Assembly (NCBI RefSeq): GCF_047495875.1
Contig: NC_092480.1
Span: 1,240,001 to 1,304,000 of the forward strand
Origin: Pithys albifrons albifrons
Lineage: Eukaryota > Chordata > Aves > Passeriformes > Thamnophilidae
Length of the DNA: 64,000 nt
Direction of reading: 5' to 3'
Shown here: positions 4,656 through 60,487 of the stretch, one piece after another
Layout: every line of letters starts with the position of its first letter
How positions within the stretch are numbered: position 1 is the stretch's first letter
The notes under the pieces: model-generated
What the model was told of the DNA's origin: nothing
Databases searched by the model: none
Seen by the model: the letters and a program-made list of their open reading frames with translations, nothing else
Position numbers and translations under genes: made by a program

Positions 4656-7260
4656 GGAGTATTCTCAGAAATGTGGAGCTGACTTTGCTCACAGGGTGAA
4701 TGGGACACTCACTCTGAGCCTCATCTCTCCTATTTTCTGGCATGTTCTTAATGCACAATGTCATAGATTTGGTTGCAACCAATTTCCTCGTTGTAGAGAC
4801 AAACAGAAGGCACGTTTTGGGAACCTTCAGCTGTTGACTGGGTAATGTTGAGGTTTGCTTCCAGGCTCTGTGGATAAAATAGGTTTTCCACTTCATCTCC
4901 CTCGGTTTCCTCAGCCATGAAAATGAGGGTGACTTTCATTTGCATGAGTGGTGGGTGGGGCTGTGGGGCCTTCCCAGAAATGCCTCCATCCTGCTTCCCT
5001 GGGTGAGAATTGCCACCATAATATGCAGATCCCACATCTAACCAAGCCATCCAGGGGAGATTGCCAGTGCTTGCCCGGGTGGCCTTGGGCACATCTCTTT
5101 GTCATTCAGCAGCTCTGATTTCCCCATCCCTGAAAGCAGGGGCAATAATGCCTTCCTGCCTCTCAGGGTGTTGGAGGATTAATTAGTTACTGTTTGAAAA
5201 GCCTTTTGAAGATGCAAAGCTTTCCATAAATATGCAGAGTTATTCCTACAGATGGGGCCCAGGTAGGGCTGAAGCTGCATCTGCCTCTGCACTGTGGAGT
5301 TCATAAATCCGGGAAGAGGTGAAATTTGTGGAATTAGTTCCTTGCACAGGGACTTGGTGATAAGGAAGCTGAGCAGCAGCAGGTTGGAAATCAGGCAGGG
5401 CACTGAATGTCGGTGTGTTTGTGCTCACTGTCCTTTATGGGCTGTTGTTCATGGGCAGGAATCCTTAAACAACCCAGAGAAGGTTGGGAGGTCTGAGGCT
5501 CCTCCACTGCCTGCAGAGATATCTCTGGGGCAAGATAAAACACATTAAAAGAGGGATCCCAGGCAGTCAGGCAGCCAAGGGGGTCTGTCCACTGCATCTC
5601 TTGGGGCCATGTTTGCATTTGTGTTGTTTGCAAAGATTTTTCCCTTCGTTGTCAGCCACCAGAACACACATCACATTTTTCTGGTTACAAAAAATCTCGG
5701 CTGTTTCTGTCTTGGAGCAAGTTACAGAAGAACAGAACGTGGCATTCCCACTTGTGATAGGAGAAAACATTTCTTTTTAACTTCAGGAAGGTAGTGAAAT
5801 ACCAGCAATATTCGTATCCTGAAAGATAATGGGAGGAGAGACAAAAGGAAAGCAAAGCCACAGAGAGAAAGCTGTGACTGTGAACATGCATTTGAACTGT
5901 AGGAAAGGAGAAGTTTTGATCTTCTCCATGAGAATTACAGGCCTGCCCAACACCAGCGTGGTTTGGCAGGGATGTGTTTTTCACCATGTTTTGGACACAA
6001 GAGCAGGGTTTGTATCCTTTGGTAATTTCCTGTGGCCTGGCATCTCCCGTCTGATAGAGGAGGCTTGATTGGCACGGGGCAGAGGGAACTGGGTGCTGGG
6101 GCAGTGCCCTGAGGTCTCACTTGCCCTGGCTGAAGTCACGCCTGAGTCAGCAGAGTTTCGGCTTTGTCGCCTTCCCATTGTGGGGGAGTGAGTCAGCCCT
6201 GATCCATCCAGGAGAGTTCCCTGATTCCTGCCCCAGCTCTGAGCCCTCAGCCCAGGCAGGGAAGGAAGGAAGGAGCTGCTGGGCTCTTTTTTCTGTGCCA
6301 TCGAGTTTATTTTTGTTTTCATTGAATCTCTTGTGTCTCGAGTTGCTTCATTTCGGAAATGAGGCTCTCTCTGGATTACTATCTTGATCCCCTCTTCAGA
6401 GCTGCTCATTCAATCCCTCCTCCTCAGCACCTGGAGAGCTCTAACAGGGTATTGAGCATTGGACCAAAACTCCTTGAGCAATGTCCAAGGCTCAAAAAAA
6501 GCCCAAGAAAGAGGCAGTGCAGAGAAAACCCTCATGTACATTTGGGGACTGAGCCCATCGAGATAAAGTCTCGGGACAGTCTCAGCTTAATTAACATCCC
6601 TCTGCTCAGGGCTCCAGCTTCTTTCCCCTCCTCCACACTTGATTTTCCAGCTGCACTGTTCTTCCCCACCCAACCACCAAATAAGCCCTGGCTCTGCATG
6701 TGGTCCCCTTTCTCAGTCTTCTCTTTGCTTGCAGGTCAGACTTGGTAAGCAAAAACACTTTGGTTTTTCCCTTGCTGGCAGGGAATGAGGTGACTGGAGA
6801 GAAGGGTCTTGGGTGGTTTTGGTCTTTGTCCTTGCCTGACCAGATTCCCACTTTTCCCAGTGCAGAATTATGATGCTGACATCCTCACTGGTGCCTATCC
6901 AGAGGAACTAGTGGCTGGGAATGGGAAGAGGCAAGTGAGTGGCCTGGGATGTGGTGATGATGTTGAGGAGACAGAAGATGGATGGGAAAACTTGTAAGGC
7001 TAAAATGGAAGGGTAGCAAGTCAAAAGAACAAGCACTGTTGAGCAGGTGGACAGGCAATCCTGTCCCTGCTTGTGGAGACAGGGCAGAAGGAGATGTGAC
7101 TTAGCTGTAAGAAGTTGGCACAAGGCCACTGGAGGAAGGAGAGCAGAGTTGTGAACGCAGGCACTGGGCAGGAGTGGGTAAAAACACAGTGGGAAAAGAG
7201 CTGAGGAAGGAGCTGGAGCAAAGTCCAGTCCAAAGGCCCTGCGGGGAAAGGCAGCAGGGA

Positions 7261-7617
7261 GGGGCAGGGGGTGCAGTGAGTGGAGGGGCAGGGGGTGCAG
7301 TGAGTGGAGGGGAAGGGGGTGCAGTGAGTGGAGGGGCAGGGGGTGCAGAGAGTGGAGGGGCAGTGGGTGCAGTGAGTGGAGGGGCAGGGGGTGCAGTGGG
7401 TGCTGTGAGTGGAGGGGCAGGGGGTGCAGAGAGTGGAGGGGCAGGGGGTGCAGAGAGTGGAAGGGCAGGGGGTGCAGTGAGTGGAGGGGCAGGGGGTGCA
7501 GTGGGTGCAGAGAGTGGAGGGGCAGGGGGTGCAGAGAGTGGAGGTGCAGGGGGTGCAGAGAGTGGAGGGGCAGGGGGTGCAGAGAGTGGAGGGGCAGGGG
7601 GTGCAGAGAGGTGCAGG
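7261..7617. repeat. 24-bp G-rich minisatellite, about 15 copies
   Basis: A tandem array of a 24-bp unit, of the form GGGGCAGGGGGTGCAGTGAG followed by TGGA, has copies differing mainly at 'gtgag' versus 'agag' and a few short insertions such as 'tgggtgct'. Because 24 is a multiple of three, every frame stays open and long artefactual Gly/Ala/Ser or Pro/Ala ORFs appear on both strands. The G-runs on the plus strand could form quadruplexes. Confidence 0.95.
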
Positions 7618-8647
7618 GGAAGGTGGAGCAGTGAGCTGGAGGCACAGGGCAGGCTGGGTTGCTGCCCAGGTGTGTGGGAACTGGCAGCTGTGCCCAGGCT
7701 TCGCTGCTGTGCCGCGGGGCAGGACGGGATCCGATGCTCTCCGGGACGGCACCTTTGTGCTGTTTGCTGAGCATGGGCTTTCAGAGCTTTATTGCAGGAA
7801 GGCCTTTCCCAGTGCTGTGTCAGCTCTTCCTGCAGCAGCCCTGCTCTGCCAGCCTCCCTGCTTTTGCCATGGGGCATGTGTCCCCTCCCCTTGGCTGGGG
7901 GGAAGCCAAGCAGCTGTGTGAAGCCAGGGTGGGTATGGCAGAGAGGGAGAGCTGGGAGCAAAGGCACGCACTTGTTCCCATCCCACTCCTCTGGTTTCTC
8001 CCCTTTTGCTGGAGAACCGAAAGGCTGAGGCTGTTTGCAAGGCTGAAGCACAGACAGCAAGAACTCATGGTCAGGTCTGGTGTTCATCTCTGCTTGTCAC
8101 TGTCCCTTCAATCTGTGGCCCATCACACTCTGGTATCTGCTTTCCTTTCATCTGTTTCTGTGAGGAACACCTGGGACAAACCTGGCCTTGCTTAGGGCCT
8201 CTGTGGGAGTCCCAATGGTGGCTCAATGGATAGACCTCCCAAACTGTAACAGAGAACAAGTGGAGCATCAATGGATGCTCCCTTTGGGAAGGAGCTTTCA
8301 CTCAAGTGGATCCCGAGGCTGCTTTGTGCTCTACTTATCCGAGGAGGAAACACTGCACAGGCAGGAGGAGGCAGCCCTGGTCTGTCCCAAACACCTGGGC
8401 AGCCAGGGCAGGGCTGGAGAGCTCACTCAGTGCAGTCACTGACTGGTCACAACATCTCTGCTGCCCCTGCCGTGTGCCGGCCCTGGGGATGAACCAGGGA
8501 CCTGGAGGGAAGGGCCCCGTGTTTCCCATTTGCAAACCAAAGCCAAGGCCATTCTTTTCTTATTGAAGAGGGATTTGGCTGAGAGCCAGCCCAGGCCATT
8601 GTATGCTCTGCCATTTCCCGTTTGCATCCCATGCAGCTCCTGAATTC

Positions 8648-8971
8648 CATACAGTTCCCAGATCCCTTACAGTTCCCAGATCCCAAGCAGCCCCCAGATC
8701 CCAAGCAGTCCCCAGATCCCATACAGCCCCCAGATCCCAAGCAGTCCCCAGATCCCATACATCCCCCAGATCCCAAGCAGCTCCCAGATCCCATACAGCC
8801 CCCAGATCCCATGCAGCCCCCAGATCCCATACAGCTCCCAGATCCCAAGCAGTCCCCAGATCCCATACAGCTCCCAGATCCCATACAGCCCCCAGATCCC
8901 ATACAGCCCCCAGATCCCATACAGCTCCCAGATCCCATACAGCCCCCAGATCCCAAGAAGCTCCCAGCTGG
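8648..8971. repeat. 18-bp minisatellite, about 18 copies
   Basis: A tandem array of the 18-bp unit CCCAGATCCCATACAGCC has variants 'aagcag', 'atgcag' and 'gctcc/gtccc'. A unit length divisible by three keeps all frames open and produces spurious Pro-Asp-Pro or Gly-Ser-Gly-Cys ORFs. Nothing suggests it is translated. Confidence 0.95.
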
Positions 8972-14321: not shown

Positions 14322-14672
14322 GGCTGCAGGCTCAGACTGTGCTGGTCAATGACACTGTGTCAGGGTTCATCGGGACAGACGTGGTCCTGCACTGCAGCTT
14401 CACCAACCCTCTGCCCAATGTGAAGATCACGCAGGTGACGTGGCAGAAGGCCACCAACGGCACCAAGCAGAATGTGGCCATCTACAACCCTGCCATGGGC
14501 GTGTCCATCCTGTCTCCCTACAAGGAGCGGGTGACCTTCCGCAACCCTTCCTTCAAGGATGGCACCATCCAGCTCTCGCGCCTGGAGCTGGACGACGAGG
14601 GCGTCTACATCTGTGAGTTTGCCACTTTCCCAACCGGCAACCGGGAAGGTCAGCTGAACCTCACAGTGCTGG
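14322..14672 (+). CDS. NECTIN1: NECTIN1 exon 2: N-terminal IgV domain
   Basis: This exon encodes the membrane-distal V-type Ig domain, which mediates trans and cis nectin dimerisation at cell-cell contacts and is also the surface known to be bound by alphaherpesvirus glycoprotein D. It is flanked by a ctccctgcag acceptor and a gtaagc donor. It enters with two bases completing a split codon and leaves one base over. The 116 full codons include the N-terminal strand ending F-I-G-T-D-V-V-L-H-C, the core W of V-T-W-Q-K, and D-E-G-V-Y-I-C closing the disulfide. The FG-loop segment A-T-F-P-T-G-N-R-E is identical to mammalian nectin-1 and separates it from nectin-2, -3 and -4. N-glycosylation sequons are NDT, NGT and NLT. 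The apparent ORF start a few codons upstream runs across the splice acceptor and is not a real start. Confidence 0.98.
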
Positions 14673-15383: not shown

Positions 15384-15686
15384 CCAAGCCCACAAACTGG
15401 ATGGAGGGCACCAAGAGGCCACTCATTGCTAAGTCTGGCAGGACAGAAAAGATCTTGGTGGCCACCTGCACCTCCTCCAACGGGAAGCCCCCCAGCACTG
15501 TCACGTGGGACACGAGGCTCAAGGGGGAGGCCGAGTTCCAGGAGATCCGGAACGGCAACGGCACCGTGACGGTGGTGAGCCGGTACCGGCTGGTGCCCAG
15601 CAGGGAGGCCCATCGGCAGCAGCTCATGTGTGTGGTCAACTACCAGCTGGACAGGTTCACTGACAGCATCACCCTCAACGTGCAGT
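15384..15686 (+). CDS. NECTIN1: NECTIN1 exon 3: second (C1-type) Ig domain
   Basis: Two bases complete Ala, followed by 100 codons and one leftover T. The exon begins K-P-T-N-W, as in the mammalian protein. It contains the first cysteine in V-A-T-C-T-S, the core W in V-T-W-D-T-R, a run G-E-A-E-F-Q-E-I-R, the sequon NGT in N-G-N-G-T-V-T-V, the strand S-R-Y-R-L-V-P-S-R-E-A-H, and the second cysteine in M-C-V-V-N-Y. The domain supports the IgV head and contributes to cis-dimer stability. The acceptor is 'ccctgcag' and the donor is gtgagt. The human exon boundaries fall at the same residues (A|KPTNW and Q|YEPEV). Confidence 0.98.
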
Positions 15687-16475: not shown

Positions 16476-16593
16476 ATGAGCCAGAAGTCACCATTGAGGG
16501 CTTTGATGGGAACTGGTTCCTCAACCGAAAGGATGTGAAGCTGATCTGCAAATCTGATGCCAACCCCCCAGCTCACACCTATGAATGGAAGCT
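16476..16593 (+). CDS. NECTIN1: NECTIN1 exon 4: first half of third Ig domain
   Basis: A leftover T plus AT gives Y, then E-P-E-V-T-I-E-G-F-D-G-N-W as in mammalian nectin-1. Next comes V-K-L-I-C with the first disulfide cysteine and D-A-N-P-P, ending Y-E-W-K plus two bases. The exon is 118 nt between a 'cccctgcag' acceptor and a gtaagt donor. Splitting of the membrane-proximal C-type domain over two exons matches the family's gene structure. It joins in phase with the exon at 18422. Confidence 0.97.
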
Positions 16594-18421: not shown

Positions 18422-18573
18422 GCCAAACGGGACTCTGCCAGGGAGTGTGGAAATCCAGAACAACACCATCTACTTCAAAGGGCCCGTGTCCTACAGCGTG
18501 GCTGGGACCTACGTCTGCGAGGCCACCAACGCCATCGGCACACGCTCGGGGCTGGTGGAGGTCAATGTCACAG
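18422..18573 (+). CDS. NECTIN1: NECTIN1 exon 5: second half of third Ig domain
   Basis: The first base completes Leu (CT|G). The exon then reads P-N-G-T-L-P, the sequon NNT in Q-N-N-T-I-Y-F-K-G-P, and A-G-T-Y-V-C-E-A-T-N with the closing cysteine, then I-G-T-R-S-G, ending V-N-V-T plus a single G. Fifty full codons are present. This is the last exon common to all transmembrane forms. The leftover G reads GAA (Glu, alpha exon at 28491) or GAC (Asp, beta-type exon at 49859), so both downstream routes keep frame. The donor is gtagga, weaker than the neighbouring gtaagt/gtgagt sites, which fits a point of alternative splicing (inference). Confidence 0.97.
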
Positions 18574-21500: not shown

Positions 21501-21611
21501 TGTAGTGTGACATGTAGCTATTTATTGCAGGCACTTGGGTGACATAATAAAGGGCTGTGGTTGCAGACTGCACGTGTGGCTGGGGGTCCTCCATGAGGGG
21601 CTGCCCATGGG

Positions 21612-22765
21612 CACACACACCTGAGGGACCCCATTTGAACCCTGGGCATGGTCACACATACACCTGAGTCACCACATCTGCATCCTGGTCATGGGCACAC
21701 ACACCTGAGTGACCCCAGTTGAACCCTGGTCATGGACACACACACCTGAGTGATCCCTTCTGCATCCTGGTCATGGGCACACACACCTGAGTGACCCCAA
21801 TTGAACCCTGGCCATGGACATACATCTGTGTGACCCCAATTGAACCCTGGCCATGGACATACATCTGTGTGACCCCAATTGAACCCTGGCCATGGACACA
21901 CACACCTGAGTGATCCCTTCTGCATCCTGGCCATGGACACACACATCTATGTGACCCCAATTGAATCCTGGCTATGGACACACACACCTGTGTGACCCCA
22001 GTTGAACCCTGGCCATGGACACACACATCTGTGTGACCCCAATTGAACCCTGGCCATGGACACACATCTGTGTGACCCCAATTGAACCCTGGCCATGGAC
22101 ATACATCTGTGTGACCCCAATTGAACCCTGGCCATGGACACACACACCTGAGTGATCCCTTCTGCATCCTGGCCATGGACACACACATCTGTGTGACCCC
22201 AATTGAATCCTGGCTATGGACACACACACCTGTGTGACCCCAATTGAACCCTGGCCATGGACACACACACCTGAGTGATCCCTTCTGCATCCTGGCCATG
22301 GACACACACATCTATGTGACCCCAATTGAATCCTGGCTATGGACACACACACCTGTGTGACCCCAGTTGAACCCTGGCCATGGACACACACATCTGTGTG
22401 ACCCCAATTGAACCCTGGCCATGGACACACATCTGTGTGACCCCAATTGAATCCTGGCTATGGAGACACACACCTGTGTGATCCCAATTGAATCCTGGCC
22501 ATGGACACACACACCTGTGTGACCCCAATTGAATCCTGGCTATGGACACATACATCTATGTGACTCCAATTGAATCCTGGTCATGGACATACATCTGTGT
22601 GACCCCAATTGACCTCTGGCCATGGACACACACACCTGTGTGACCCCAATTGAATCCTGGCTATAGACATACATCTGTGTGACCCCAGTTGAATCCTGGC
22701 TATGGACACACACACCTGTGTGATCCCATCTGCATCCTGGCCATGGACATGCACACCTGTGTGCC
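21612..22765. repeat. 39-41-bp minisatellite with 365-bp higher-order repeat
   Basis: About 28-29 tandem copies of a unit built as TGTGTGACCCCAATTGAACC, then CTGGCCATGGACA, then a variable ACACACACC/TACATC segment. Variant units with 'gatcccttctgcatcctgg' recur at multiples of the basic period. Positions 21865-22086 and 22230-22451 (222 bp, offset 365 bp) are identical by direct reading. The array therefore grew recently by duplication of multi-unit blocks. Long minus-strand Cys/His/Trp-rich ORFs here are artefacts of the periodicity. Confidence 0.95.
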
Positions 22766-25700
22766 CCTGGTCTGTGCCCTGGCTGTGGAAAGGGGCTTCC
22801 CAAACCTGCCTGCACAGGGGTGCCCTGTTGCACAGTCAGGTGTGTGTGCAGCAGTGACACACCAGTGCCTTTGGATGTGTGAGTGTGCATGTGTGTGCAA
22901 ACCTGTGCTTTTCTGTGTGCAGCAGGGCACGGACACAACCCTGGCTCTGTGTTTGTGTGTTCATATTCATTTGTGTGTGTCTGCAAGGGACTTGTGTACT
23001 GGCTTCAGCAGAAGGAGGAGGATGTTAAAGCACCTCTTGTTCCTCATGGACCACTAAAAGAGAGCTGGGGGAGCAGGGAGAGGCTGTGCCAGCCCCGGCC
23101 TTGGATGTGTTACAGGCTGAGGGGAGGAGAGGCTGGCATGGGCTGATCACTCCCCCTGTTTCCAGGCTTGCAGCAGGGAGTTATTTACACACCAGCAGTG
23201 CTCTGGTCCCAGCAAGGTCAGTGCAAACAGCCCCTGGGGCTGGCTGGCACCCACTGCCATGCAGCAGCAGGGCTTTGCTAAGGCTCAGAGCACACAGGAA
23301 AAGCCCTTTCCGGGAAGTTCTAAATCCCAAGCCTAAAGCAGGTGCTCCCAAAGCCTCAGCACCAACCAGGCAGCTTGAAGGGGGAGGATGTAGGGTTGGA
23401 GGGGGGGCTAAGAGGAGGAACAAGCCCGGGGTGGGGGTGTCTGTCTGATGCTAATCTCCAGAGTGTCTGCTGCATCCTGTCTGGTGGCATCTGTGCCAAG
23501 GCCCCGTGGGAGCAGGGCTTGATTGACAAGTGATAGGTGACCTGACAGAGAGATTAAAACCTAAGACACGTTTGGCATCTGGCCTGGAAGCCGTCACACT
23601 CTGAAATGCCAGTGGCAGCTGCTGAACTTCTGGATTAATTGCCAGTGGTTTTTCCACCCCCAACCACCTCCTGTCCATCCATCTGCACCAGGAGACCCCT
23701 GGAAGGGAGAGGAAAGGCAAGATCCTTTGAAGCTGGACATGGGCATGCAGAGGTGCAAAGGGAAGCAAAAAGGGCTTCTCCAATTGCAGCTCAGTCCAGG
23801 CTGAGGCAGGTCCAGAGGTATGTACGTGTGTATGTCCTTATCTTCACTCGTGTACACAACTGTAACCCAGGGCAAAGTCTGGGATAATTTGGCGTGGACT
23901 GTTCCGGCAGGGAAAGTTTGCCATCAGCAATCTGTCTCTTAAAAAAACACCCACATACAGCAGTCATTGTTGTATTTGCTGAGGCCATCTGGAAACTGGG
24001 AAGCCCCATGAATCCAGTGGAGTTCCTGCTCCTCCCAGAGCTGCTGCTCACCCAGCCTCCCATTGCAGTGGGTGTTGGATTTTGCAAGGTAGAAGGAAAT
24101 CCAGAGCCTTCCTCTGGAAGAGCTTCATGCAAGAAGAAATTGGGCTGACACATGTCCAGAAGGTCATTTCTCATGGAGCTTGGCATTTTCCTCAGTGCCT
24201 GTGGCTGCAGGGAGAATTTTGGCTGGTGCTGGGTTGTTCCTTGGTCTTTATGATTGATGGCAAAAGGGTGGAAATGTGGCTGCAAGAAAAAGTGTGTCCA
24301 CAGGAAGCAGAATCCTTTAAAATTTCCAAGCAGTGTGCTGAGCAGAAGGGCTTTTGAAAGCTGCTGTCCCGTGGATCTGCATATCACAGAAGAATTACTT
24401 GGTGTCTAAAAATACACTTTTTCTGATCTGGGCCCATCCTGCCCTTGGGAGCAGCCTCTTGTCCCTGTGGGTTCTCTGATGTCTAATGAGGTTTAGCTCC
24501 CACCTCCACCAAGGATCCCACTCCAGCTCTCCCCAAGAGCTTTATGATAGGGATGATTTTGGTTCATTTTTGTTCTGTCAGATAGCACAGAAATTGGCCA
24601 GCAGGTTCAAAAGGCATTAGATGAGGGATTGATGGGCAGGTGGGATGATTTGCATGTGTCTCATTTTTACTGGAAACAGCCATTAGAAAAGAGATGTGAT
24701 GTTTAAAGTGTCTTATTTCTGAAGCCCCTCTGGTGATGGGGAGGGTTTGTCCCTGCAGTGGCTGCACTGCTGTGCCCCAGTGGGGTGCAGGGGCAAGGAG
24801 GAGGTGCTGGAGCCTGGGCTGGAGGGATCAAAGAGACCCTGTGGGCTGGGCCAGGTGCCAGGGTGGAGCACAGGGTGAACCCCTGGCATTCCCAGCTGCT
24901 GTCCCAGAGGTCCAGCTCCTGGCACGGGGACAGGAAGCTGGGCTGAATGCAACAGCTGGCAGAGCTGGGCACGGGCAGATAGTGTTGCTGCTGTAATTCC
25001 TATTCATACAGCACTCCCTCTTTTTATGAGGGCTGAGGGGAGCAGGAGGGGGGAGCCTTTTTATGCTGGTATTAAAGCCTGGCTTGTTCCCCCTCCCTCC
25101 GCTCTGCTGTCTCCTGTTTCTCCAGGCTGCTTTTCACAGTGGCTTTAATTCTCTCCAGACTCTTCCTAATGGATTTTTCACATGGGGGCCCCGGGCACGC
25201 TCGGGCATCGCACCAGTGGCCAGAGATTTCACGCCCCCCTTGGACACAAAGAAGGGATCCTTTTCCCACACTCTCCCCAGGCTGCAGGGCTGCTCTCTTT
25301 GCACCCCAGACACGAAACCCAGTGGGCAGAGGGTGAGTCCCCCTTCATGGGGCTGGCAGCAGTGGCTGCATGCAGAGAGATGCCCACTGGGAGCCGGACT
25401 GGTCCCAGTCATTAATTAACCTGGGTGCTGGATGAGGAGCACCATGGCAGGGCTGGGGCACAGGTGTGGGGCACAGGTGACACTCTGCTCTCTGCTCACC
25501 ATCTGCCAGTGCCAGGGCACCCTGTTGCACTGCTCCTTGCCCAGGGAACAGGGCTACCTGCCCAGGAACAGGGCTACCTGCCCAGGAGCAGGGCTCCCTG
25601 CCCAGCTCATCCCTCCCTCACTGCTCCTGCAGCCCACGGCGAGGGTCGCCTGCAGTGCCCACCCTGCTCTGGAGCAGTGCCGGTCTGTGCCGCCATCCAG

Positions 25701-28490: not shown

Positions 28491-29032
28491 AATTTCCCTA
28501 CACCCCGTCTCCAATCGATGATCACAAATCCATGGTGCAGCCGAACATCCCCACACCGGTGATTGGGGGCATAGTGGGCGGAGTCTCGCTGGTCCTGGTG
28601 GTGGCCGTGGTGCTCTTTGTGGTACTCCGGCGCCGGCGTCACACCTTCAAGGGTGACTACAGCACAAAGAAGCACGTGTACGGCAACGGCTACAGCAAGG
28701 CTGGCATCCCGCAGCACCACCCGCCCATGGCGCAGAACCTGCAGTACCCCGACGACTCGGACGACGAGAAGAAGCCTGGCCCCCTGGGCGGCAGCACCTA
28801 CGAGGACGAGGATGAGGATGCGGGTGGCGAGCGCAAGCTGGGCGGCTCTGCCAAGTACGAGGAGGATGCCAAGCGGCCTTACTTCACCGTGGACGAGGGC
28901 GAGCCCCACCCCGAGCCCTACGACGAACGGACACTCGGCTTCCGCTACGACCCCGAGCAGCTGGACATCGCCGAGAACATGGTGTCGCAGAACGACGGGT
29001 CTTTTATTTCCAAAAAGGAGTGGTACGTGTAG
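28491..29032 (+). CDS. NECTIN1: NECTIN1 alpha terminal exon: stalk, transmembrane and afadin-binding tail
   Basis: The exon starts after the acceptor 'ttcctacccag'. AA completes Glu, then F-P-Y-T-P-S-P as in mammals. A transmembrane helix runs from I-G-G-I-V-G-G through a Val/Leu-rich core to the stop-transfer R-R-R-R-H. The tail contains T-F-K-G-D-Y-S-T-K-K-H-V-Y-G, the block Q-Y-P-D-D-S-D-D-E-K-K, an acidic Glu/Asp stretch, K-R-P-Y-F-T-V-D-E, and the end S-K-K-E-W-Y-V before TAG. The last four residues fit the E/A-x-Y-V ligand for the afadin PDZ domain, which couples nectin to actin at adherens junctions. With exons 2-5 this gives about 487 residues, the mature length of the mammalian protein. 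The acidic stretch is shorter and less uniform than in human. Confidence 0.98.
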
Positions 29033-40600: not shown

Positions 40601-43204
40601 TCCAGCTTTGATCCATACTGGAGATGGGGGAGGCTCCCTGTGTGGAGCCAACAAACCCCCTGCTGAATGGCTTACAAGGCTAAATATTGGTGTTACCTCC
40701 TTTGAGAAGTTAGGAGGGAAGGGAAGGTGTGTTGGAAGTGTTTCAATGCCACAAACGGGAGGGAGAAATCAGGAAAAGGGTCAGGGATGGAAGTCTGAGT
40801 TGCCTTTGCATCATGTCCCTGTCCTGGAGCAGAACTGACTGGGGCAGCCAGGGCTGTGCTGCAACTCCCCAGCCAGGGCAGGCACAGGGACAGTCCTGGC
40901 TCAGGAGGGGCAGAGCTGACCCTCACACTGCTGGTCAGGAAGGTGCTGTGAGGAGCAGCAGCACCAGAGTCCCTGTGAAAGCCAAAGGAGCTCCAGCAGT
41001 TTCATTCTCACACATCTGGCAGCTCCCTCCCTGCTCCAGGAGCCTGAAGAATCATTCTTTGGTCTGGCCTGCAGCAGGTCTCAGGGGTGTTTGGGAAGCT
41101 GTGGGAGAGGAGGGAAGGGAAGGGGGAGTGAGGAGACACAGCAGGCTCAGCCCTCCTTGTGCTGCAGCTGCCAGGGCAGAGAGGAGAACTGCAGCCCTGC
41201 CCACCTGCCCTCCTGCCCAGCTATTGAGGCACTTCTGGCCAGGTGACAGAGGCAGAGCAGCTCCTGCTCACCCTGCCAGGCATTCCCTGTGTTCCCGTGC
41301 ATGGATGCACAAGGGAGAGACCCCTGGAGACACCCCTGGCACAGCTGCCCAGTGCTGTGAGCATCCCCAGGGCAACAGGAGACAAATGCAACCCAGAGCA
41401 CAGACCAGGAAGAGTGAGATGTTCCCAGGAGTGCTGCTGGGGATTGTTGAGCAAATTAACTCTATTAACGCAAATGATGAGAGTCTGAGCTGTCTGAGCT
41501 CCTGTACCTTCTATCTGACAGAATTCATCTGGTGGCTGCTTGTAATAGCATGACCTTAATGGACTCATCAAGGGAGCAAGGCTGGATCTCTGGCTGAACA
41601 TGGGGCTGGGATCACACTGTGCTCTGGGCAGCTCCAGCAGGCTGCTGGGGATCAAGAGACAACACTGCTGGAACAGGGTTCAGGATCTGGCCCCTTCATC
41701 CCGCCAGGAGAGGCAATTTCAAGTGTCATCACCTCCTCGAAACTGTACAGCAGAAGAAATAAATTACTAAAGGGATTTGATTGTTCATTACTCTGCCGAG
41801 CTGCAAGGAAATGAAGCAGAACTAAAATTAAGGGCTGGGAGGCAGAGGAAATGTCAGAAAACGTTTCCCTTCTTCTCCAGGGCTCATCTTCTCCCCCAAA
41901 ACAGGCTGGGGCACTCTGTCTGCTGCCCTGAGCTGTCAAGCCCTTGGCTGCAGGAAGGCAGGAGGTTCTGTGGGGTTGGCCAAGCAGGTGGAGAGAGGCC
42001 AGGTGAGGTTTGGGCTGGGTTTGGACAGGTGGGTTACAGGTAACAAGGTCGTGTTTGCCCCCTGTTTTGCTAAAGAGGCACAGGGAAGGAACACCAGCCC
42101 AGCAGGAGGTGTCTGTAGTGGAGTTCCCACCTCTACAGCCCCTCTGCAAATCCTCATCTCTGCTGGATCCCATGGGGTTAACATGCTGCTCCCATGGCTG
42201 CATCCAAACCCCAGCCCTGTTAGTGGCCACTGGAAACGCAGCAAGGGGAGGTCTCCGGGGGCTAAAGTCACATTCCAGACATGCCTTTGCAGCCAGTGGC
42301 TACTTAAGCAGATGCTGTTTCACCAGGGATGATGCTGCTTCCTGCAAGAGAGGAGGGGAGAGGGAGAAAACTGGTCATCACTGGAGGGAGCCAGGTGGCT
42401 CCTCCCTTGGTGAATGGCAAAGCAATTGCCTTTGCTGGAATGTGTGAAATCTCCACTAATGTCCAGCACATCCCTGGGTCCACTTCAAAGCAGGCACCCC
42501 AGGGAGGGCTGGAGCCACACACCACCCTGCCAGCCTCTCCCAACGCCTCAGCAGAGACAGGAGAGTGGTTTGCACAGTCCCTGAGTGCCAGTTGGCACTG
42601 GGAAAATTACAGGGGAAGGCAAAGTGGTCAGGCAGCCTCAAGGGTTGTTGGGATTAGTGCCCAGACAGTGGGATACCCACACTGGGAATGTGCCCAGCAC
42701 CCAGGGGATGCCCAGTTCTCTGGGATTCAGAGGAGGGGAATTAGAGAGGGGATATATCAGGTCACTCATAGAGGGGCTTAGCAGCTGGGAGGGATTCCCA
42801 CTTGTGGGAGGGAGAGACAGGCCAGTGCAGAGAGGTCAGAGGCATTTGTTTGTTTAACAACAGGCTTTTGGCCCCAGCAAACACAATGGAACCAGGACCC
42901 TCCCAGCACCCCTCTGCTGGCACCAGCTGCAGGGAGCTGAGCACCCCATCCTGGGGGCCCTGTGCACCCAGCCTGTGCAGAGGGGGGTTTGCAGGGCAAT
43001 GAGGCAGTGCCAGGACCACAGCCATGCCTTGGCACTTGCCTGTGTGGTGGCTGATTGTGTAAGTGAGAGTTACATCAACAAACACCCTGATGGGGAGAAG
43101 TTGTGACAGCTCTAAAAATTCCATCTGACTTATATCAGGGCCCAGAGGCAGAAGAGAAGCTCTGCCTTCATTTTGGTGTTTAACCTTTAGCTGGCTGTGC
43201 TGCA

Positions 43205-43897: not shown

Positions 43898-46800
43898 GCT
43901 GCACCTGCAGCTCCTGAGGTGACACTAAACCAGAAGCAATCAGGTCCTGAGCAACCTCTGTTGCTGGAGGAGCCTCTGGAAGGCCAGGGTGGGGAGGGCT
44001 GCAGATCAGTTCTGCTCTTGGGAGGATTTTACCACCAAGGGAAGTCCAGAAAAACCTACCAGCCCCCCTGCTGACCAAATCACTGCTCTTCCCTGTGCTG
44101 AGGAGCCCCTGCCCCTCCTTCTCTCACCACCTGTCACCAGATGAGCAGCACCAGGTGACAGAGCTGGGTGAGTGGAGCTGCAAACACCAAACTGTCCATG
44201 GAACGTGGGTTTGTGTTTGCACTCCACAGAACCCCCTCACTGGGAAGGGCTTTCACACGTGGCTCTTGCAGCCTGGCCACCTCCACCTGCAGTTCAGGAT
44301 GGATCTGAGCTGGAGCTGGGTCGGAGGGGGCTTAGGTGGGAGCAGAATGAGATGCAGTGTCTCCTTTTCCTCCCCACTTCAGGCCAGGACCAAAGGGAGT
44401 GAAGATTTGGGACTCAGCAAATGCTGCTGCTGAAGGGGCAGGAGGGCATTTCAACCTCACCCAGTAAAGGTCCAGTGCCACTGGCTCAGCTTCCCCAGCA
44501 GTGCCTTTCCCTTCTTAATCCCTTTTATCCTCTGGATGCTTCGCTGTCCCTGGAAGGGATTCACTTAATAGACACAGCGAAGGGAACTGCCCCCAGAGAA
44601 ACCTCCCCCACCTCTGCTCCCTCAGACTTCAGATCCCTTCAAATCTCCAGGGCCTTGCAAGCCTTGTGTTTATCCTCCCCTTTGGCCTCTCAGTCCCAGC
44701 AGCTCTGGCTCTGCCTCTCCTGGGAGCAGCATCTCATTAACCCTTTGCAAACACGAGCTGGGACCAGCTTGTGCCTGGGGGTGTGTGTTCTACTGGAGCG
44801 TGTCTCAAATTAGCCAATCCTGTGCTTGTCTTTAAAACCAAACTGGGGATCTATTTGTTCTGCCAAGCTTTTCAACTCGGTTTAATTTAGCTCTGTGAAC
44901 TTGCCATGTCTCAGGCTCCCTGGAATGTGTCAGGTGGGGTGTATTATAAATATGCATCCTCTGAGCTCATTGGATTGCTCAGCAGGAAGAAAGTCCAGCA
45001 AGTGCTGACTCCTTCCTTGGGGTCAGGGTGACAATCCAGGGCATGGACAGGCTTTCTTTGGGCTGGCATTGCCTTGGCACAGGGTGCTTTACCCATGCAG
45101 GGATGCACCAAGGTAGCATTAACTCTGGCAGGGCTGGCTCCTGGAAGGGCTTCAGAGCTGCCAGCACAACAGAGAAGGACCACAATTCCTTCCCATGGAC
45201 TTGCCAGGTGTGCACGAGCAAGGCAGCACATTGCTGAGTGCCTTGGCCAGCCAGGAAATAGGTGGGGACTTGCTCTGTGTGGGGAGATGATAAATGGAAA
45301 GGGAAACCTGCTCTGGAACTGGTTATGGATTCAGGCAGATCTCTGGGCAAAGCGTTTATCAGAAGTGTTGTGTGTTTTTGTGCTGGTTTTCTGCAAAGCA
45401 ATAAGGGATCAGGTTGAATTTAGGAGGGGTAAAGGCAGGAGAGGAGTGTGCAGCTTTCTCTGAGCTTCACTCAGAGCTGCAGTAAAGCAGCCCAGAGACT
45501 GACTCCAGGTTTACTTGGGGGTGCAGGTTGGTGCACCAGCATTAGGTGGGGCTCAGGCTCTCCTTGGGGCAGCTGAACTCATGGCAGACAGTCAGACTAG
45601 GAAAGAACACACTAGCACTGTGAGACCCAGCCCTCTCACCCAAAGGAAGCGTTGCTGCCTGCCCAGACTCCCTCCCACAGACCTGCTCTGCCCACCTGCT
45701 CGGGCTGGATGGCCCTGCAGCAGGAGCACAATTAGCTGTCTGATTCCAGCTTTACTTGCAAAGCCAATCCCAGACAGGGATGTAACAGATCCCTCTCTCG
45801 AGTCTTGATCCCCAAAACAGCCAGGCTGCTTCATGATGCAAATGTCCCAGGCACACAAGTAGCTTTCAGGGAAGAGACCTCACTCCCAAAGTGTGACAGA
45901 CGCCAACTCTCCTTTCCTTTCACAAATTCCTCCACATCCCTCTCTCCATACCAAGAGCAAGTGAGTCACTTCCTCTGCTCTGCCATACCCTTGTCTGGAT
46001 GCTTTCCAGTTGATCCATCTCTGCCTCTGCAAGTTGCCTTTGGGAACATCTCTCTTGCTCTCTTGTAAGTTGGTTCTCCCGAGCCTTTATTGTCCCTCCA
46101 TCATTATTGAGTGCTGCTCTCTGCGGCCGCGCTGTGTCACCCCCGGGCTCTGCTCCTCTGGATGGCTCTGGCCCTTTGTCTCTCTGCTGGGAAAGGCTCC
46201 CCTGGCTCTGGCAGTGAATCACAGCCAGGGCTCTGTCCACACAGACAGAGCCATCAGCCCTGGGGCTGTTTGGACAAGGGTTTTGTCAGAGTCAGTGCCA
46301 TTAACTCTGCTCTCTGTGTGCTGTGCCTGTGCCCGACACATCCCTGCGGGCACACGTCGTGTCCAGCCATTCCTCACTGCCCAGCGAGATGGGCACAACT
46401 GGCAGCGCTGGAATGCTGGGTGTGATCTAACTGAGCCCTGGGACTGGGGAATTAGTGTCAGCACCTCACAAAATGGTTTAATTGATCCAGTTGGTGCAAA
46501 GATCTTCATCTGAGCAGTTGCTCTTGGAAAGGCAGACACACACCCCCAGGTGACTGGGAAGATGCTTTGCAGAGGCAGATCCACTTCTGCTCCTTCCCTG
46601 TGTCTGCCTCCAACTCCAGAAGAGCCGTGGGAGAACAAAGTAAGGAACCAAACAGCTCTGAAAGAGACTGGGGGTGGGACATCCTTCTTTCCCCCTTAAT
46701 TGTAATACTGTGAATTAATTCAGTTTGCAGCAGGAATGAGGAGTTTCCCAGCAGCCCTCAGACATCCTGATAAGGCTGAGCTGTTTGCTCAGCCCCTTTG

Positions 46801-49858: not shown

Positions 49859-50006
49859 ACAAGCCACTACCTCAGAGTGCCCCAGGAGGCATTATTGGCA
49901 TCGTGGGAGGTGTGGTAGCAGCCGCCCTCATCCTCGGCGTGGTCATCACCGTCATCATCGTCTACAGGCGGCAGCAGAAGAGCCGCTCGGACACAGACAC
50001 CGACCT
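49859..50006 (+). CDS. NECTIN1: NECTIN1 alternative (beta-type) stalk and transmembrane exon
   Basis: The acceptor is 'gtgtgttgcag'. AC joins the leftover G of exon 5 to give Asp, then K-P-L-P-Q. Next comes a Gly/Val/Ile-rich transmembrane helix (I-I-G-I-V-G-G to V-I-I-V-Y) with the stop-transfer R-R-Q-Q-K-S, ending D-T-D-T-D and two bases (CT) before the donor gtgagt. It aligns in position and character with the mammalian nectin-1 beta (HIgR) exon, which likewise follows exon 5 with an acidic residue, K-P, and the tail start R/N-R-Q-Q-K-S. It replaces the alpha transmembrane and tail, removing the afadin ligand. The 148-nt length and phase match exon 5 on one side and 51923 on the other. Confidence 0.93.
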
Positions 50007-51922: not shown

Positions 51923-52010
51923 AATTGACTTGCCTCCATCCCACAAACCTGCCCCTCCACCAAAGAGGAAACAGGAGATGAAAAGCCACCTGACTCCAGA
52001 AGATATCCAG
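51923..52010 (+). CDS. NECTIN1: NECTIN1 beta-type cytoplasmic exon 1
   Basis: An 88-nt exon: A completes Leu (CT|A), followed by 29 codons. It is Pro/Lys-rich (L-P-P-S-H-K-P-A-P-P-P-K-R-K) and ends L-T-P-E-D-I-Q. The P-E-D-I-Q-V-V-H-L-D block formed with the next exon is shared with the mammalian beta isoform and with nectin-3 tails. It ends on a codon boundary. The donor gtgtgt is suboptimal, and reading through would enter intron sequence. The proline-rich part could bind SH3 domains (inference). Confidence 0.9.
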
Positions 52011-52626: not shown

Positions 52627-52737
52627 GTTGTTCACTTAGACAACATGAAACACGAGGAGGAGATCCAGAAGCTCCCTTTGCAGGCTCCATACTATGACAT
52701 GGCAGCCCCTGAGCCCTCTCCCTACATTGACAAACTG
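52627..52737 (+). CDS. NECTIN1: NECTIN1 beta-type cytoplasmic exon 2
   Basis: A 111-nt exon, phase 0 on both sides (37 codons), between acceptor 'cctctattccag' and donor gtaagg. It begins V-V-H-L-D, continues with a charged run H-E-E-E-I-Q-K-L, then L-Q-A-P-Y-Y-D-M and S-P-Y-I-D-K-L. The blocks Q-V-V-H-L-D and L-Q-x-P-Y-Y-D match the mammalian beta tail. Mammals then read to a stop in their own sequence, whereas here the exon is spliced to 58556. In this bird Y-Y-D-M fits the Y-x-x-M consensus for the PI3K p85 SH2 domain; the mammalian counterpart has Leu at the last position. As a phase-0 cassette it could be skipped without a frameshift. Confidence 0.9.
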
Positions 52738-52785
52738 GTAAGGATCTCCTGGTGCTGGTGGTGCTGCCTGGCATCTCCCTCAGCT

Positions 52786-52941
52786 CTCCCTCAGCCTCAC
52801 CCTCAGCCTCATCCTCACCCTCAGCCTCATCCTCACCCTCAGCCCCAGCCTCACCCTCAGCCTCATCCTCACCCTCAGCCTCATCCTCACCCTCAGCCCC
52901 AGCCTCAGCCTCATCCTCATCCTCACCCTCAGCCCCAGCCT
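52786..52941. repeat. CCTCAG/CCTCAT hexamer-based minisatellite
   Basis: A degenerate array of 6-bp units (CCTCAG, CCTCAC, CCTCAT, CCCCAG) has 18-30-bp higher periodicity over about 155 bp. It starts 49 bases after the exon donor at 52738. The frame following the exon stays open through it (Pro/His/Gln-rich), purely because of the unit length. Confidence 0.93.
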
Positions 52942-53096
52942 CGCTGCCTTGCACACAGCATCTCTCTCCCTAAAAATAAAGACCCCCATGAGCAGCTCCA
53001 CAGCCCAGGATTGTCCTGTCCTGGAGGAAGGGACCTTCCACACTGACCTCAGCTCACTTTTCAGAGACTCTAACTCAGCATTGCCCTTTTCCACAG

Positions 53097-56100: not shown

Positions 56101-57012
56101 GGCCAGACCTTGTATACAAGTCACATTATTGATATTGTAATAAATTCTGCTCCAAACGAGCAGCAGGGAGCAGGAGGAAGCCCAACAGTGGGAGAAAGCA
56201 GGGGGACACCTCCTGGGGGAAGGGAGGGCTATTTTGGAGAGCAGTGAGGCAGAGTAGGCAGGATAGGAATGAGGAGGCAAGACAGGCTGCCTTTCTCTGG
56301 GCCTAATGGAGGTCCTGAGATGCAAAGTGCAGGGGGAAAGAGTTTGCAGGGCCTGGGTTTATGTTTGAGACTGGAGTTGGCATTACTAATTTTCCTAAAT
56401 GTCCACAATCTGGCTCCAGACACGAAGCAGAGAGGCCACAGGATACTCAACTTTCATGCCAACAACTTGCCACTGCCATCTGCTCACCAAGGACAGGACA
56501 GAGGTGACCTCGAGCCTCCTGCTCCCCCAGCATGCAGCTTGGGCAGCATGGAAATGCTGCTGCAGAGCTCCCCTCATCCATCCCTGTGGCTGAGGGGCAG
56601 GATCAGGGAGCCAAGCCCTGGCACAGGCCAGCACAGCAGGCAGAGATAATCACCCCCTGAATAACCCCTTCCAGCAACAGGCACTCCACCAGCTCATTAC
56701 AGGGCTATAAACTTCTGAAAATGGCCCTGCCACAGCTGGTCAGTGGCCGAAGAAACTTCCAAACAAAGAGGAGAGAAACATTTTCAAATTGAACACCTTT
56801 TCCATCATTTCCATGTGATGCAGCCATTTTGGAAAGGGAAGAGAGAAATGGGAAAGCTGTTCCATTTGGAAGAGGCAACTCAGCTCTCAGAGAGGCTCAG
56901 CAGATGCCTGGCTAATGCTGGCACAGGAGCCAGCCCCAAACCCAAGGATTAAAGAAGCTCCCCAGGGCAAGTGGCCAGAGTGCCCCTCACTCTGCTGTGG
57001 GCACCAAAGCTC

Positions 57013-57684
57013 TTCCTGGTGGTCCATATTCCCCTCTGAGCCAGGAGCTTTCCAGGCCATCCTGCCCTCCAGGCTTCTCCTCCTGGTGATCCATATTCCC
57101 TACAGAGCCAGGAGCTTTCCAGGCCATCCTGCCCTCCAGGCTTCTCCTCCTGGTGGTCCATATTCCCCTCTGAGCCAGGAGCTTTCCAGGCCATCCTGCC
57201 CTCCAGGCTTCTCCTCCTGGTGGTCCATATTCCCCTCTGAGCCAGGAGCTTTCCAGGCCATCCTGCCCTCCAGGCTTCTCCTCCTGGTGGTCCATATTCC
57301 CCTCTGAGCCAGGAGCTTTCCAGGCCATCCTGCCCTCCAGGCTTCTCCTCCTGGTGATCCATATTCCCTACAGAGCCAGGAGCTTTCCAGGCCATCCTGC
57401 ACTCCAGGCTTCTCCTCCTGGTGATCCATATTCCCCACTGAGCCAGGAGCTTTCCAGGCTATCCTGCCCTCCAGGCTTCTCCTCCTGGTGATCCATATTG
57501 CCCTCTGAGCCAGGAGCTTTCCAGGCCATCCTGCCCTCCAGGGTTCTCCTCCTTGAGATCCATATTGCCCTCTGAGCCAGGAGCTTTCCAGGCCATCCTG
57601 CCCTCCAGGGTTCTCCTCCTTGAGATCCATATTGCCCTCTGAGCCAGGAGCTTTCCAGGCCATCCTGCCCTCCAGGCTTCTCCC
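57013..57684. repeat. 67-bp minisatellite, 10 copies
   Basis: Ten tandem copies of a 67-bp unit contain GGTCCATATTCCCCTCTGAG, GAGCTTTCCAGGCCATCCTG and CCTCCAGGCTTCTCCTCC in order. Copies differ by a few substitutions ('ctacagag' versus 'ctctgag', 'ttgagatcc' versus 'tggtgatcc'), and the last copies form a distinct sub-variant. Because 67 is not divisible by three, the three frames rotate, so the long minus-strand ORFs repeat over 201 bp. The array ends about 870 bp before the ITIM exon. There are no unique spacers, so this is not a CRISPR array. Confidence 0.97.
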
Positions 57685-58555: not shown

Positions 58556-58696
58556 AACTCTGGCAACAAGGACTGTGATGTCCAGTATGCAGAGCTGGAC
58601 ACGTCCGCTCTGGCCTCGTCACCCAGCCCTCGGAGCTCCATCCCTGCTGGCGGAGACCTAGTCGAGTATGCCACCATCCAGCCCACCCTACGCTAG
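58556..58696 (+). CDS. NECTIN1: NECTIN1 alternative terminal exon encoding a two-ITIM tail
   Basis: The exon opens after 'ctcttctctccag' in phase 0, matching the donor at 52738, and has 46 codons before TAG. It contains V-Q-Y-A-E-L (Tyr at residue 11 of the exon) and V-E-Y-A-T-I (Tyr at residue 38). Both fit the ITIM consensus I/V/L/S-x-Y-x-x-L/V/I, with 27 residues between tyrosines joined by a Ser/Pro/Ala-rich linker. ITIM pairs, when phosphorylated, recruit the tandem SH2 domains of SHP-1 or SHP-2. The C-terminus is T-L-R, so no afadin PDZ ligand is present. The strong acceptor, exact phase and multiple CpGs in a GC-rich coding block support a real exon. I do not recognise an equivalent in the mammalian nectin-1 isoforms I know. 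Use of this exon in mRNA is inferred. Confidence 0.82.
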   Translation, partial: NSGNKDCDVQYAELDTSALASSPSPRSSIPAGGDLVEYATIQPTLR

Positions 58697-60442
58697 CGCA
58701 TGTCACTCTAGGCCCTTTCCCCCCAGACTCTGGCCTCAAGGTACACAACTGCCTTCCTCACTGCACCCCCAGAGTCACTGTCCCCCTCCCCTGCAGCTCC
58801 TCCCCTCCTCTGGAGCGTCCAGTCTGTCCCCTCCCCTCCCCTGTGTGCCCCGCACGCTGCCTGCTCTCTCTGCTGCCCTGACTTTTGGGGATGCCTTTGC
58901 CCTGTCTCGCCTCCGTGCATGCCCTTGGCAGTGTTTTCCTTTGCTTTCCACAGTGGGAGAGGGGGAAAGGGTTAATGGCTTTGTTTCAGAGCAGTCAGTG
59001 TGGCTGGAGGCACAGGGAGAAATGAGGTGGGTTGGAAGGGTGCAGGTCCTGGGATTTGTGGAGCAGAAATACTAAAATTCCAATATCTGGTTCTGCAGAA
59101 GGCAAAATCCTCATGGAAATGTTAAGAGGGTCCTTCCAAGTTAGTCAGTGCAAGAAGGGGAGAGGGAAAAAAAAAGGGGGACTGACTGAAAGACAAATTT
59201 AAAAAAAAAAAGCAGAGTTTGTGTGCATGGAAGTAACTATAGATAAGATGGAGCATATGTGCATGTGTGAAAGAACAAGGTGGGAGAGGATGTGAGAGAA
59301 TATGGGAACACGTAAAGGTTCCTGCACCTCAAAGAGTCAGTGAAAAAGAGCCAGTCAGAGGGGGACTGTCTGTGACAATAACAGGGCTGGTGCTGGGTGA
59401 GGTTGGTGCAGGGAGCGTGTTTGGATGTTTGGAAAAGAGGGGGAAGGATTATTTTTTTGGTGATTTTCATCTCAAAATTACAGACCTGATTTTGCCAACC
59501 TGTCCTTCCAACACTTGGTGGAAGTGTCACCAAGCTCAGGTCCTGTGGCAGGGAGTGATTAGGGCTCAGTTTGCATTTAAAGCTACAGTTTGCATTTAAA
59601 GTGGTTGTTCTGGACCATCTTTTGCTACCAGTGACCCTTTGAAAGGTGTTTTCTTTAGTGGAAGGAGGATTCTTCAGCTCTTCTTACTCTCCCTTGTCCT
59701 ATAATCACACCTTCTCAGATACTAAAGCCACCAGTCCTTGTCTAAAAGGGATGCAACTCTCCCAGCTCATGGGACGTTTGCTGGATGATGCCAAGAGTTG
59801 GCCAAGGAAATGCCATTGTTGTCCCTCTCCTTGGTTACCACTCTTCCTAAGTTAAGGTGATCCAGCTTCTACCTTGCTCCTTCTTCTTTATTTTGCTGCC
59901 TTTTTGAGGGCAGGAAGGGGCTGTGGGTTTAAAGGAGCCACAGGAGTCCCCAGTGAAGAGGTGCAGGGAAGAGTGAGGAGAAGGGAAGGCAGCAGAGGCA
60001 GAGATGAGGTGCTTTGCAGCTCAGTGTCCCTCCCAGGTCACCCAGGCAGGTCAGAGGAGGCTCACAGAGAAGCAGCAGCTTGAGGATGGAGAGGGGTGGT
60101 TTGGAGGAGATAGAGGGCAGAGGAATTGGATCCTTGGGAAGGAGGGAAATAGCTCCATGCAGGAGAATAAGCAGAAAAATGGCACTTTGAAGAAGTGCCC
60201 CTGAACTAGGACTACAGTGCTGGCAGGGGAAGGTGGAGCACAGCACCCTGGGGGGAAGGTGTGCAGTGGGGTAGCTCAGTCTGCCTTTTCTCCCTGTGCT
60301 CCCTGGTTTTCCCGTGTTGGAAGCAGCCCTGTAGTTCCCCCGCTGTAGCCCAAGCCCTCCAGGGAAGTGTGTGCACAGCCCTGCCCCGGAGCAGAGCCGT
60401 AACCTCTCTCTCTTGCGGTGTCTCACCCACTCCTGCTCCCAG

Positions 60443-60487
60443 AATGAGGATCAAGGTCTTCGTAGACGTAACGAGCGAGAGTGGACA
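60443..60487 (+). other. Candidate 45-nt phase-0 microexon
   Basis: The acceptor 'cactcctgctcccag' and a consensus donor gtaagt bracket exactly 45 nt, open in phase 0, encoding a basic peptide containing G-L-R-R-R-N-E-R-E-W-T. The segment has four CpGs within about 15 bases, in otherwise CpG-poor flank, as expected for constrained coding sequence. Its phase matches the donor at 52738, so it could be spliced in place of the ITIM exon, but no partner 3' exon was convincingly found. It could equally belong to an unrecognised transcript or be fortuitous. Confidence 0.33.

Follow-up and report, generated by a model that had tools for sequence, protein, structure and literature searches.

Does the gene of nectin-1, known as a receptor of herpesviruses and as an adhesion molecule that is bound to afadin, also encode a tail which carries two ITIMs? 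The question is raised by an exon at 58556..58696 on the forward strand of the window, that is the whole stretch of 64,000 nucleotides of Pithys albifrons albifrons DNA that was analysed, for which an alternative C-terminus of nectin-1 had been proposed from the letters of the DNA. The reading we favour as the probable one is that this exon is a real and ancient alternative nectin-1 C-terminus, and that the phosphorylated tail is predicted to recruit SHP-2/SHP-1. It has to be weighed against a chance frame or prediction artefact, a function of the tyrosines in protein sorting and a regulatory function of the exon in the transcript.

The nectin-1 gene and the exon with two ITIMs

The ectodomain of the gene is encoded on the forward strand by an exon for the Ig V domain (14322..14672), one for the second Ig domain (15384..15686) and two for the third Ig domain (part 1 at 16476..16593, part 2 at 18422..18573). 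The first three of these exons are assigned by splice sites and phase, by the Ig domain and by their match to nectin-1, while the fourth is the point at which the alpha and beta-type 3' ends branch. The encoded domains are V-set, C2-set_2 and Ig_3, and in the PDB the ectodomain matches nectin-1 with E = 1.6e-165, nectin-3 with 5e-59, nectin-2 with 6.9e-50 and PVR with 1.2e-43. Judged by its three Ig domains, which match nectin-1 over the other nectins, the gene is the nectin-1 orthologue. Searches by tblastn of the window together with 15 kb upstream did not reveal a signal-peptide exon.

The alpha form of nectin-1 has the ectodomain exons in common with the ITIM form and continues into its own exon for transmembrane segment and tail (28491..29032, +). 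This exon ends with KKEWYV and lies outside the ITIM isoform; EWYV is an afadin-type PDZ end. The ITIM form, in contrast, uses beta-type exons. These are a transmembrane and juxtamembrane exon (DKPLPQSAPGGIIGIVGGVVAAALILGVVITVIIVYRRQQK..., 49859..50006, +) and a proline-rich linker exon (51923..52010, +), both supported by splice sites and phase, and a beta-type tail exon which contains PYYDM (52627..52737, +). The latter ends in phase 0 at 52737 with the donor AAACTG|gtaagg and joins the ITIM exon in frame. The frame is also kept across the junction from 18573 to 49859, as had been claimed. Joined together, the eight exons stay open in a single frame over about 470 residues (469 or 470 depending on the start residue), and their seven internal junctions are all GT..AG with matching phases.

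The ITIM exon follows a pyrimidine-rich acceptor (tgctgctctcttctctccag|AAC). Its coding part, assigned by splice phase and conservation, translates over 46 codons to NSGNKDCDVQYAELDTSALASSPSPRSSIPAGGDLVEYATIQPTLR, then TAG. Within it VQYAEL (58580..58597, +) and VEYATI (58661..58678, +) both match the hexamer consensus of ITIMs, (I/V/L/S)xYxx(L/V/I). The coordinates, reading phase and motifs given for this exon in the original prediction are thus confirmed by the sequence and the splice phases, and only the distance has to be amended: the tyrosines stand at residues 11 and 38 of the exon and are 27 apart, with 26 and not 27 residues between them. 5' of the tail a hydrophobic segment (GIIGIVGGVVAAALILGVVITVIIVY) is followed by RRQQK, which, judged by eye, describes a single-pass protein with the motifs on the cytoplasmic side. 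Afadin-type PDZ C-termini follow the consensus E-x-Y-V. Such an end is absent from the ITIM form, which terminates with IQPTLR, while other forms of the gene end with EWYV or EQYV; the ITIM product comes from the nectin-1 gene as an isoform without the adhesive tail.

To what extent such a pair of motifs occurs elsewhere can be seen from all stop-to-stop frames in the window that are 40 codons or longer, of which the six frames contain 1046. Paired ITIM-like hexamers 15-40 residues apart are present in only one of them, the ITIM exon. The loose pattern GTNCARTAYGCNGARCTN has 11 matches in the bird genome including the ITIM exon, where about 11 are expected by chance (hand arithmetic), and the reversed pattern used as control has none; no conclusion was based on this pattern.

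Large minisatellites were seen in the window at 7258-7649, 8647-8955, 21601-22767 and 57010-57683; the 67-nt array ends 0.9 kb 5' of the ITIM exon.

Conservation of the two-ITIM tail

Protein searches were made with the tail region, yielding 104 proteins, and with the capuchin tail, yielding 49; as 41 of the latter were already among the former, the resulting set has 112 proteins. Both searches are word-based and favour well-conserved relatives, and the names in the set are those of the source, mostly automatic predictions ("nectin-1 isoform X3"), with some proteins unnamed. Both motif positions were found in 61 of the 112 proteins, only the first in 32 and neither in 19. The proteins with both motifs belong to sharks and rays, reedfish, bowfin, many teleosts, a salamander, frogs, two snakes, a bird and mammals, the latter being represented by capuchin, horse, beaver, rat, guinea pig, badger and elephant shrew (the badger and elephant shrew sequences are models without Ig domains). 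Both tyrosines are present in 60 of the 61 proteins, the exception being the badger protein P0110, in which the first tyrosine is replaced by H (IHHAEL). Besides the window only one bird protein with both motifs appeared in these searches, P0002 from Myiozetetes, which stands for a cluster of 15 members. Lizards are represented among the 112 proteins by one-ITIM forms (P0012, P0019) and by forms without the exon, but by none that has both motifs. The closest named proteins come from the suboscine birds Willisornis, Myiozetetes and Neopelma.

Among the 104 matches of the tail search no protein bears the name of another nectin: the matches are called nectin-1, are unnamed or, in one case, represent a fused "FAM101A-like" model. 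Receptor tails are rare in the PDB, and a sequence search there with the tail gave only two meaningless matches (E 0.83 and 1.7).

Comparing the ITIM exon with the Ig domains of the same protein, both in terms of identity to the window, reveals that in nine out of 19 representatives the exon is more conserved than each of the Ig domains. These are three cartilaginous fish (catshark, skate and bamboo shark), five ray-finned fish (bowfin, reedfish, Denticeps, cod and fugu) and, by a narrow margin, axolotl. In catshark 38 of the 46 residues of the exon (83%) are identical while its Ig domains reach 73, 54 and 69%, and in bowfin the values are 89% for the exon and 63, 60 and 72% for the Ig domains; over the three cartilaginous fish, reedfish and bowfin the identity of the exon ranges from 78 to 89%. 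In the remaining ten representatives the exon is not above all Ig domains: it is 93% identical in the bird representative (Ig domains 98, 96 and 100%), 70% in two snakes (73-82%) and 50-63% in five full-length mammals (71-81%), and in two frogs it lies just under the V domain and higher than the other two Ig domains.

These values bear directly on the possibility that the exon is a chance frame or an artefact of gene prediction. Although the supporting proteins are mostly automatic predictions, an exon which in cartilaginous fish, reedfish and bowfin exceeds the conservation of their own Ig domains, and which is the sole paired-ITIM frame out of 1046, makes this explanation scarcely credible; the chance frame was rejected on the grounds of conservation and of the 1046-frame control. 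As far as these protein comparisons go, the two-ITIM tail is a real, deeply conserved and isoform-specific tail, and it is an ancient feature of jawed vertebrates, from sharks to mammals, that is not peculiar to birds. The tail had been presented as a nectin-1 C-terminus with paired ITIMs, and in identity and consensus this description holds, while its scope turns out to be wider.

The open frame and the tyrosines were also followed through the relatives. Among tails selected for the second motif, both tyrosines are retained in 41/41 distinct non-mammal tails and in six of seven mammal tails, and the frame was not lost; because only one other bird protein carries both motifs, this check, which had been suggested for related birds, rests mostly on other classes. 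Counting that of the window there are 48 distinct tails; in the first motif 47 of them have Y, and all have A and L as well as V or I at position -2. VEYATIQ is likewise found in 48/48 tails, an invariance which is partly by construction because VEYATI is part of the rule by which the 61 rows were chosen. A substituted second motif was not found in any of the 112 proteins, and the 32 proteins with the first motif only diverge at a splice point. The distance between the tyrosine positions is 25-28 in all 61 two-motif proteins (in badger the first position is H).

The same residues allow us to evaluate whether the tyrosines serve mainly as sorting signals instead of phosphatase sites. YxxPhi is the tyrosine sorting consensus, and by inspection YAEL and YATI both fit it; such signals would be recognized by AP-1/AP-2 and act in endocytosis or basolateral sorting. 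The related CD155 alpha does bind the mu1B subunit of a clathrin adaptor for basolateral sorting, according to the accessible part of PMC7037299. However, V or I at -2 in every distinct tail and a spacing held at 25-28 residues are both features which YxxPhi does not require. Because the -2 residue and the distance between the tyrosines are conserved, ITIMs are favoured, and we regard a predominantly sorting function as unlikely. Both roles may coexist.

In the beta-type tail exon (52627-52737) PYYDM, a YxxM-type site, reads YYDM in 12 of 14 non-mammal representatives and YYDL in all seven mammal tails.

Possible splice donors and alternative 3' ends

In the original prediction the ITIM exon was described as a 46-codon terminal exon. 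The 46 codons and the good acceptor stand, but its terminal nature is questionable: A[AT]TAAA was looked for between 58690 and 60443, 3' of the exon, and none was found, and there are two candidate donors. The internal one, CGA|GTATGC (after 58665; 58666..58671, +), would remove the second ITIM because the tyrosine codon TAT occupies donor positions +2 to +4. It is precisely at this point that the one-ITIM proteins from other species, 32 out of 32, depart from the common sequence; they include ray and shark (P0070, P0073), gar, teleosts, frog and lizards. The other candidate, CTCAAG|GTACAC (after 58740; 58741..58746, +), lies 44 nt past the stop. At the matching place the ostrich model P0091 is joined (...DSGLK|NEDQGLRRR), which supports this second donor but not the ITIM protein, because P0091 reads the ITIM exon in another frame. 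Because a poly(A)-type signal is missing before the next exon and two donors are possible, the ITIM exon is probably not simply terminal, and a strictly terminal exon, the simplest picture, was set aside. With two possible donors, splicing has a choice between a two-ITIM and a one-ITIM tail.

Should inclusion of the exon merely introduce an early stop and lead to decay of the transcript, the exon would be a poison exon and its conservation would reflect control of the nectin-1 level. Decay is expected if a stop lies more than 50-55 nt before the last junction. The lack of A[AT]TAAA between the exon and 60443 is in line with this, as is the second donor 44 nt past the stop, which together with the 45-nt cassette described below would place a second junction 89 nt past the stop. 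If splicing goes directly to the last exon, on the other hand, the only junction lies 44 nt past the stop and does not exceed the usual limit. Proteins in the databases are by construction in frame, and protein conservation alone cannot separate coding from RNA-level constraint; whole-codon indels were dropped as an argument for a protein role, being circular for the same reason. In mammals, however, the motif cores have been retained while the stretch between them has drifted, as expected of a protein role, and we judge the poison exon to be a very unlikely explanation.

A 45-nt cassette exon at 60443..60487 (+) can be read in two frames, as NEDQGLRRRNEREWT after the beta exon and as MRIKVFVDVTSESGQ after the internal donor, and the latter reading is identical to the anole protein P0019. 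A further exon lies 927 bases past the window end (L009:1927-2142), which in the internal-donor path reads TLESVTQRYRMRVIT, identical to the lizard protein P0012. If the ITIM exon is skipped, cassette and further exon are read in the other frame and give NEDQGLRRRNEREWT, NFGECHAEV...SRAPYICPKEQYV. This skip form has a beta-type tail ending with EQYV, which is PDZ-type and resembles the alpha end EWYV. When the skip tail was used for a search, 14 proteins were retrieved, which belong to birds, turtles, lizards and a sturgeon, and none to a mammal or a cartilaginous fish; 13 of the 14 end with EQYV by eye, and the exception, the antbird model P0075, continues past KEQ. P0075 starts with peptides from 42999-43061 and 46491-46644, followed by the beta-type transmembrane exon. 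This start may indicate an alternative first exon or promoter for beta-type products without ectodomain, or may be a prediction artefact.

For both downstream exons the two frame readings match other sauropsid proteins, and database proteins were found for each of the beta-type endings. These exons are thus readable in two frames, and if the ITIM exon is included, ITIMs would take the place of a PDZ-type end. The proposed uncoupling from afadin would apply only to the form that includes the ITIM exon, because skipping of this exon gives the EQYV end, similar to EWYV of alpha.

The mammalian beta form, or HIgR, is built from transmembrane, linker and beta exons of the kind also used by the ITIM form. 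In capuchin the tails of P0111 (...SYYPS|VRTTELGGECP; at greater length ...GVSPSYYPSVRTTELGGECP) and P0090 (...SYYPS|GSGLKD...; at greater length ...GVSPSYYPSGSGLKDTDIHYAEL...) are identical up to the same residue. P0111, which we take to be the HIgR type on the basis of the human form, continues after the shared ...GVSPSYYPS with VRTTELGGECP and has no ITIMs. A common residue of divergence is expected if a single donor is read through in one form and spliced in the other, and V-R at the divergence of P0111 fits an unspliced donor. We infer that the HIgR-type tail of mammals arises when the beta exon is read through, the ITIM tail being its spliced alternative: both forms share the beta-type transmembrane, linker and tail exons, but the ITIM form splices at the beta donor. 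That the beta/HIgR tail lacks an ITIM pair, as originally stated, agrees with the tail of P0111, yet the comparison shifts, since the tails are shared up to one donor. In this bird such a read-through product would extend through a 6/18-nt repeat (52778-52942), which would encode a long PQPH-rich tail, and AATAAA follows at 52975 before the stop. Because repeat and AATAAA precede the stop, a normal protein is unlikely to result from read-through here.

A more comprehensive reading of these endings, for and against which we see the balance as even, is that nectin-1 represents an ancient C-terminal switchboard. By splicing it would end with EWYV, with EQYV (sauropsids, sturgeon) or with a two-ITIM or one-ITIM tail (jawed vertebrates), where the one-ITIM tail would result from the donor that overlaps the second ITIM's codon for tyrosine and from the same downstream exons in the other frame. 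Mammals would have kept the ITIM tail, with HIgR as a read-through by-product of the same exon, and nectin-1 would be an ancestral ITIM receptor of the nectin family and more than one of its adhesive members.

Predicted signalling and comparable receptors

Joining the beta-type 3' end to the ITIM exon would yield the adhesive three-Ig ectodomain of nectin-1 with two ITIMs 27 residues apart. Nectin engagement at cell contacts would then cluster the receptor, a Src-family kinase would phosphorylate both ITIM tyrosines, and the phosphorylated pair would bind the tandem SH2 domains of SHP-2 and activate the phosphatase locally, as is reported for CD155 alpha. SHP-1 would probably be bound too because both motifs have alanine at pY+1. 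The output would be set by the choice of the 3' end: two ITIMs, one ITIM (internal donor), EQYV (skip) or EWYV. Transcription in this bird, phosphorylation, SHP recruitment and the biological effect are steps which we infer.

Paired-motif receptors of SHP-2/SHP-1 include PZR/MPZL1 and CEACAM1-L. Like PD-1 and BTLA they have two tyrosine motifs in order, and the likeness of all four to the nectin-1 tail is one of motif only. In the accessible part of PMC10231330, SHP-2 is activated by two linked motifs, whose orientation and spacing are critical. The PD-1 pair, Y223 and Y248, is 25 residues apart (PMC7078208, accessible part), close to the 25-28 of the nectin-1 tails. Alanine at pY+1, present in both motifs of the nectin-1 tail, is also found in BTLA (IVYASL) and favours SHP-1 binding according to the corresponding part of PMC8631942. 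Closer in kind is CD155 (PVR, nectin-like 5) alpha, a related Ig adhesion receptor with an isoform-specific ITIM tail, for which the accessible part of PMC7037299 describes phosphorylation of the ITIM by c-Src and recruitment of SHP-2. In contrast to this ITIM of CD155 alpha, the nectin-1 tail has two, spaced as a pair.

An ITIM tail on nectin-1 is not described among the literature matches listed in a full-text search that covered few subscription papers, and neither VQYAEL nor VEYATI occurs as text in any of the full texts searched. Nor do the accessible parts of PMC7286890, PMC6373967, PMC10416819, PMC9777592, PMC3223518, PMC11633101, PMC7037299, PMC8631942 and PMC10231330 describe it. As far as its accessible part goes, the nectin survey PMC7286890 gives nectins with a PDZ-binding motif and PVR with an ITIM, and where several isoforms existed the longest was used; this choice can hide tails like the one with two ITIMs. 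The tail sequence is not new, as it is present in predicted isoforms in public databases, but its recognition appears to be.

The conserved two-ITIM tail suggests that nectin-1 may be an adhesion receptor that doubles as a signalling receptor. If the tail is made, nectin contacts could directly activate SHP-2, which would tie adhesion to immune inhibition or to signalling of the FAK type, and different outputs would be mixed by antibodies or knock-outs which are blind to the tail. Whether splicing decides between holding cells together and signalling by nectin-1 thereby becomes a testable question.
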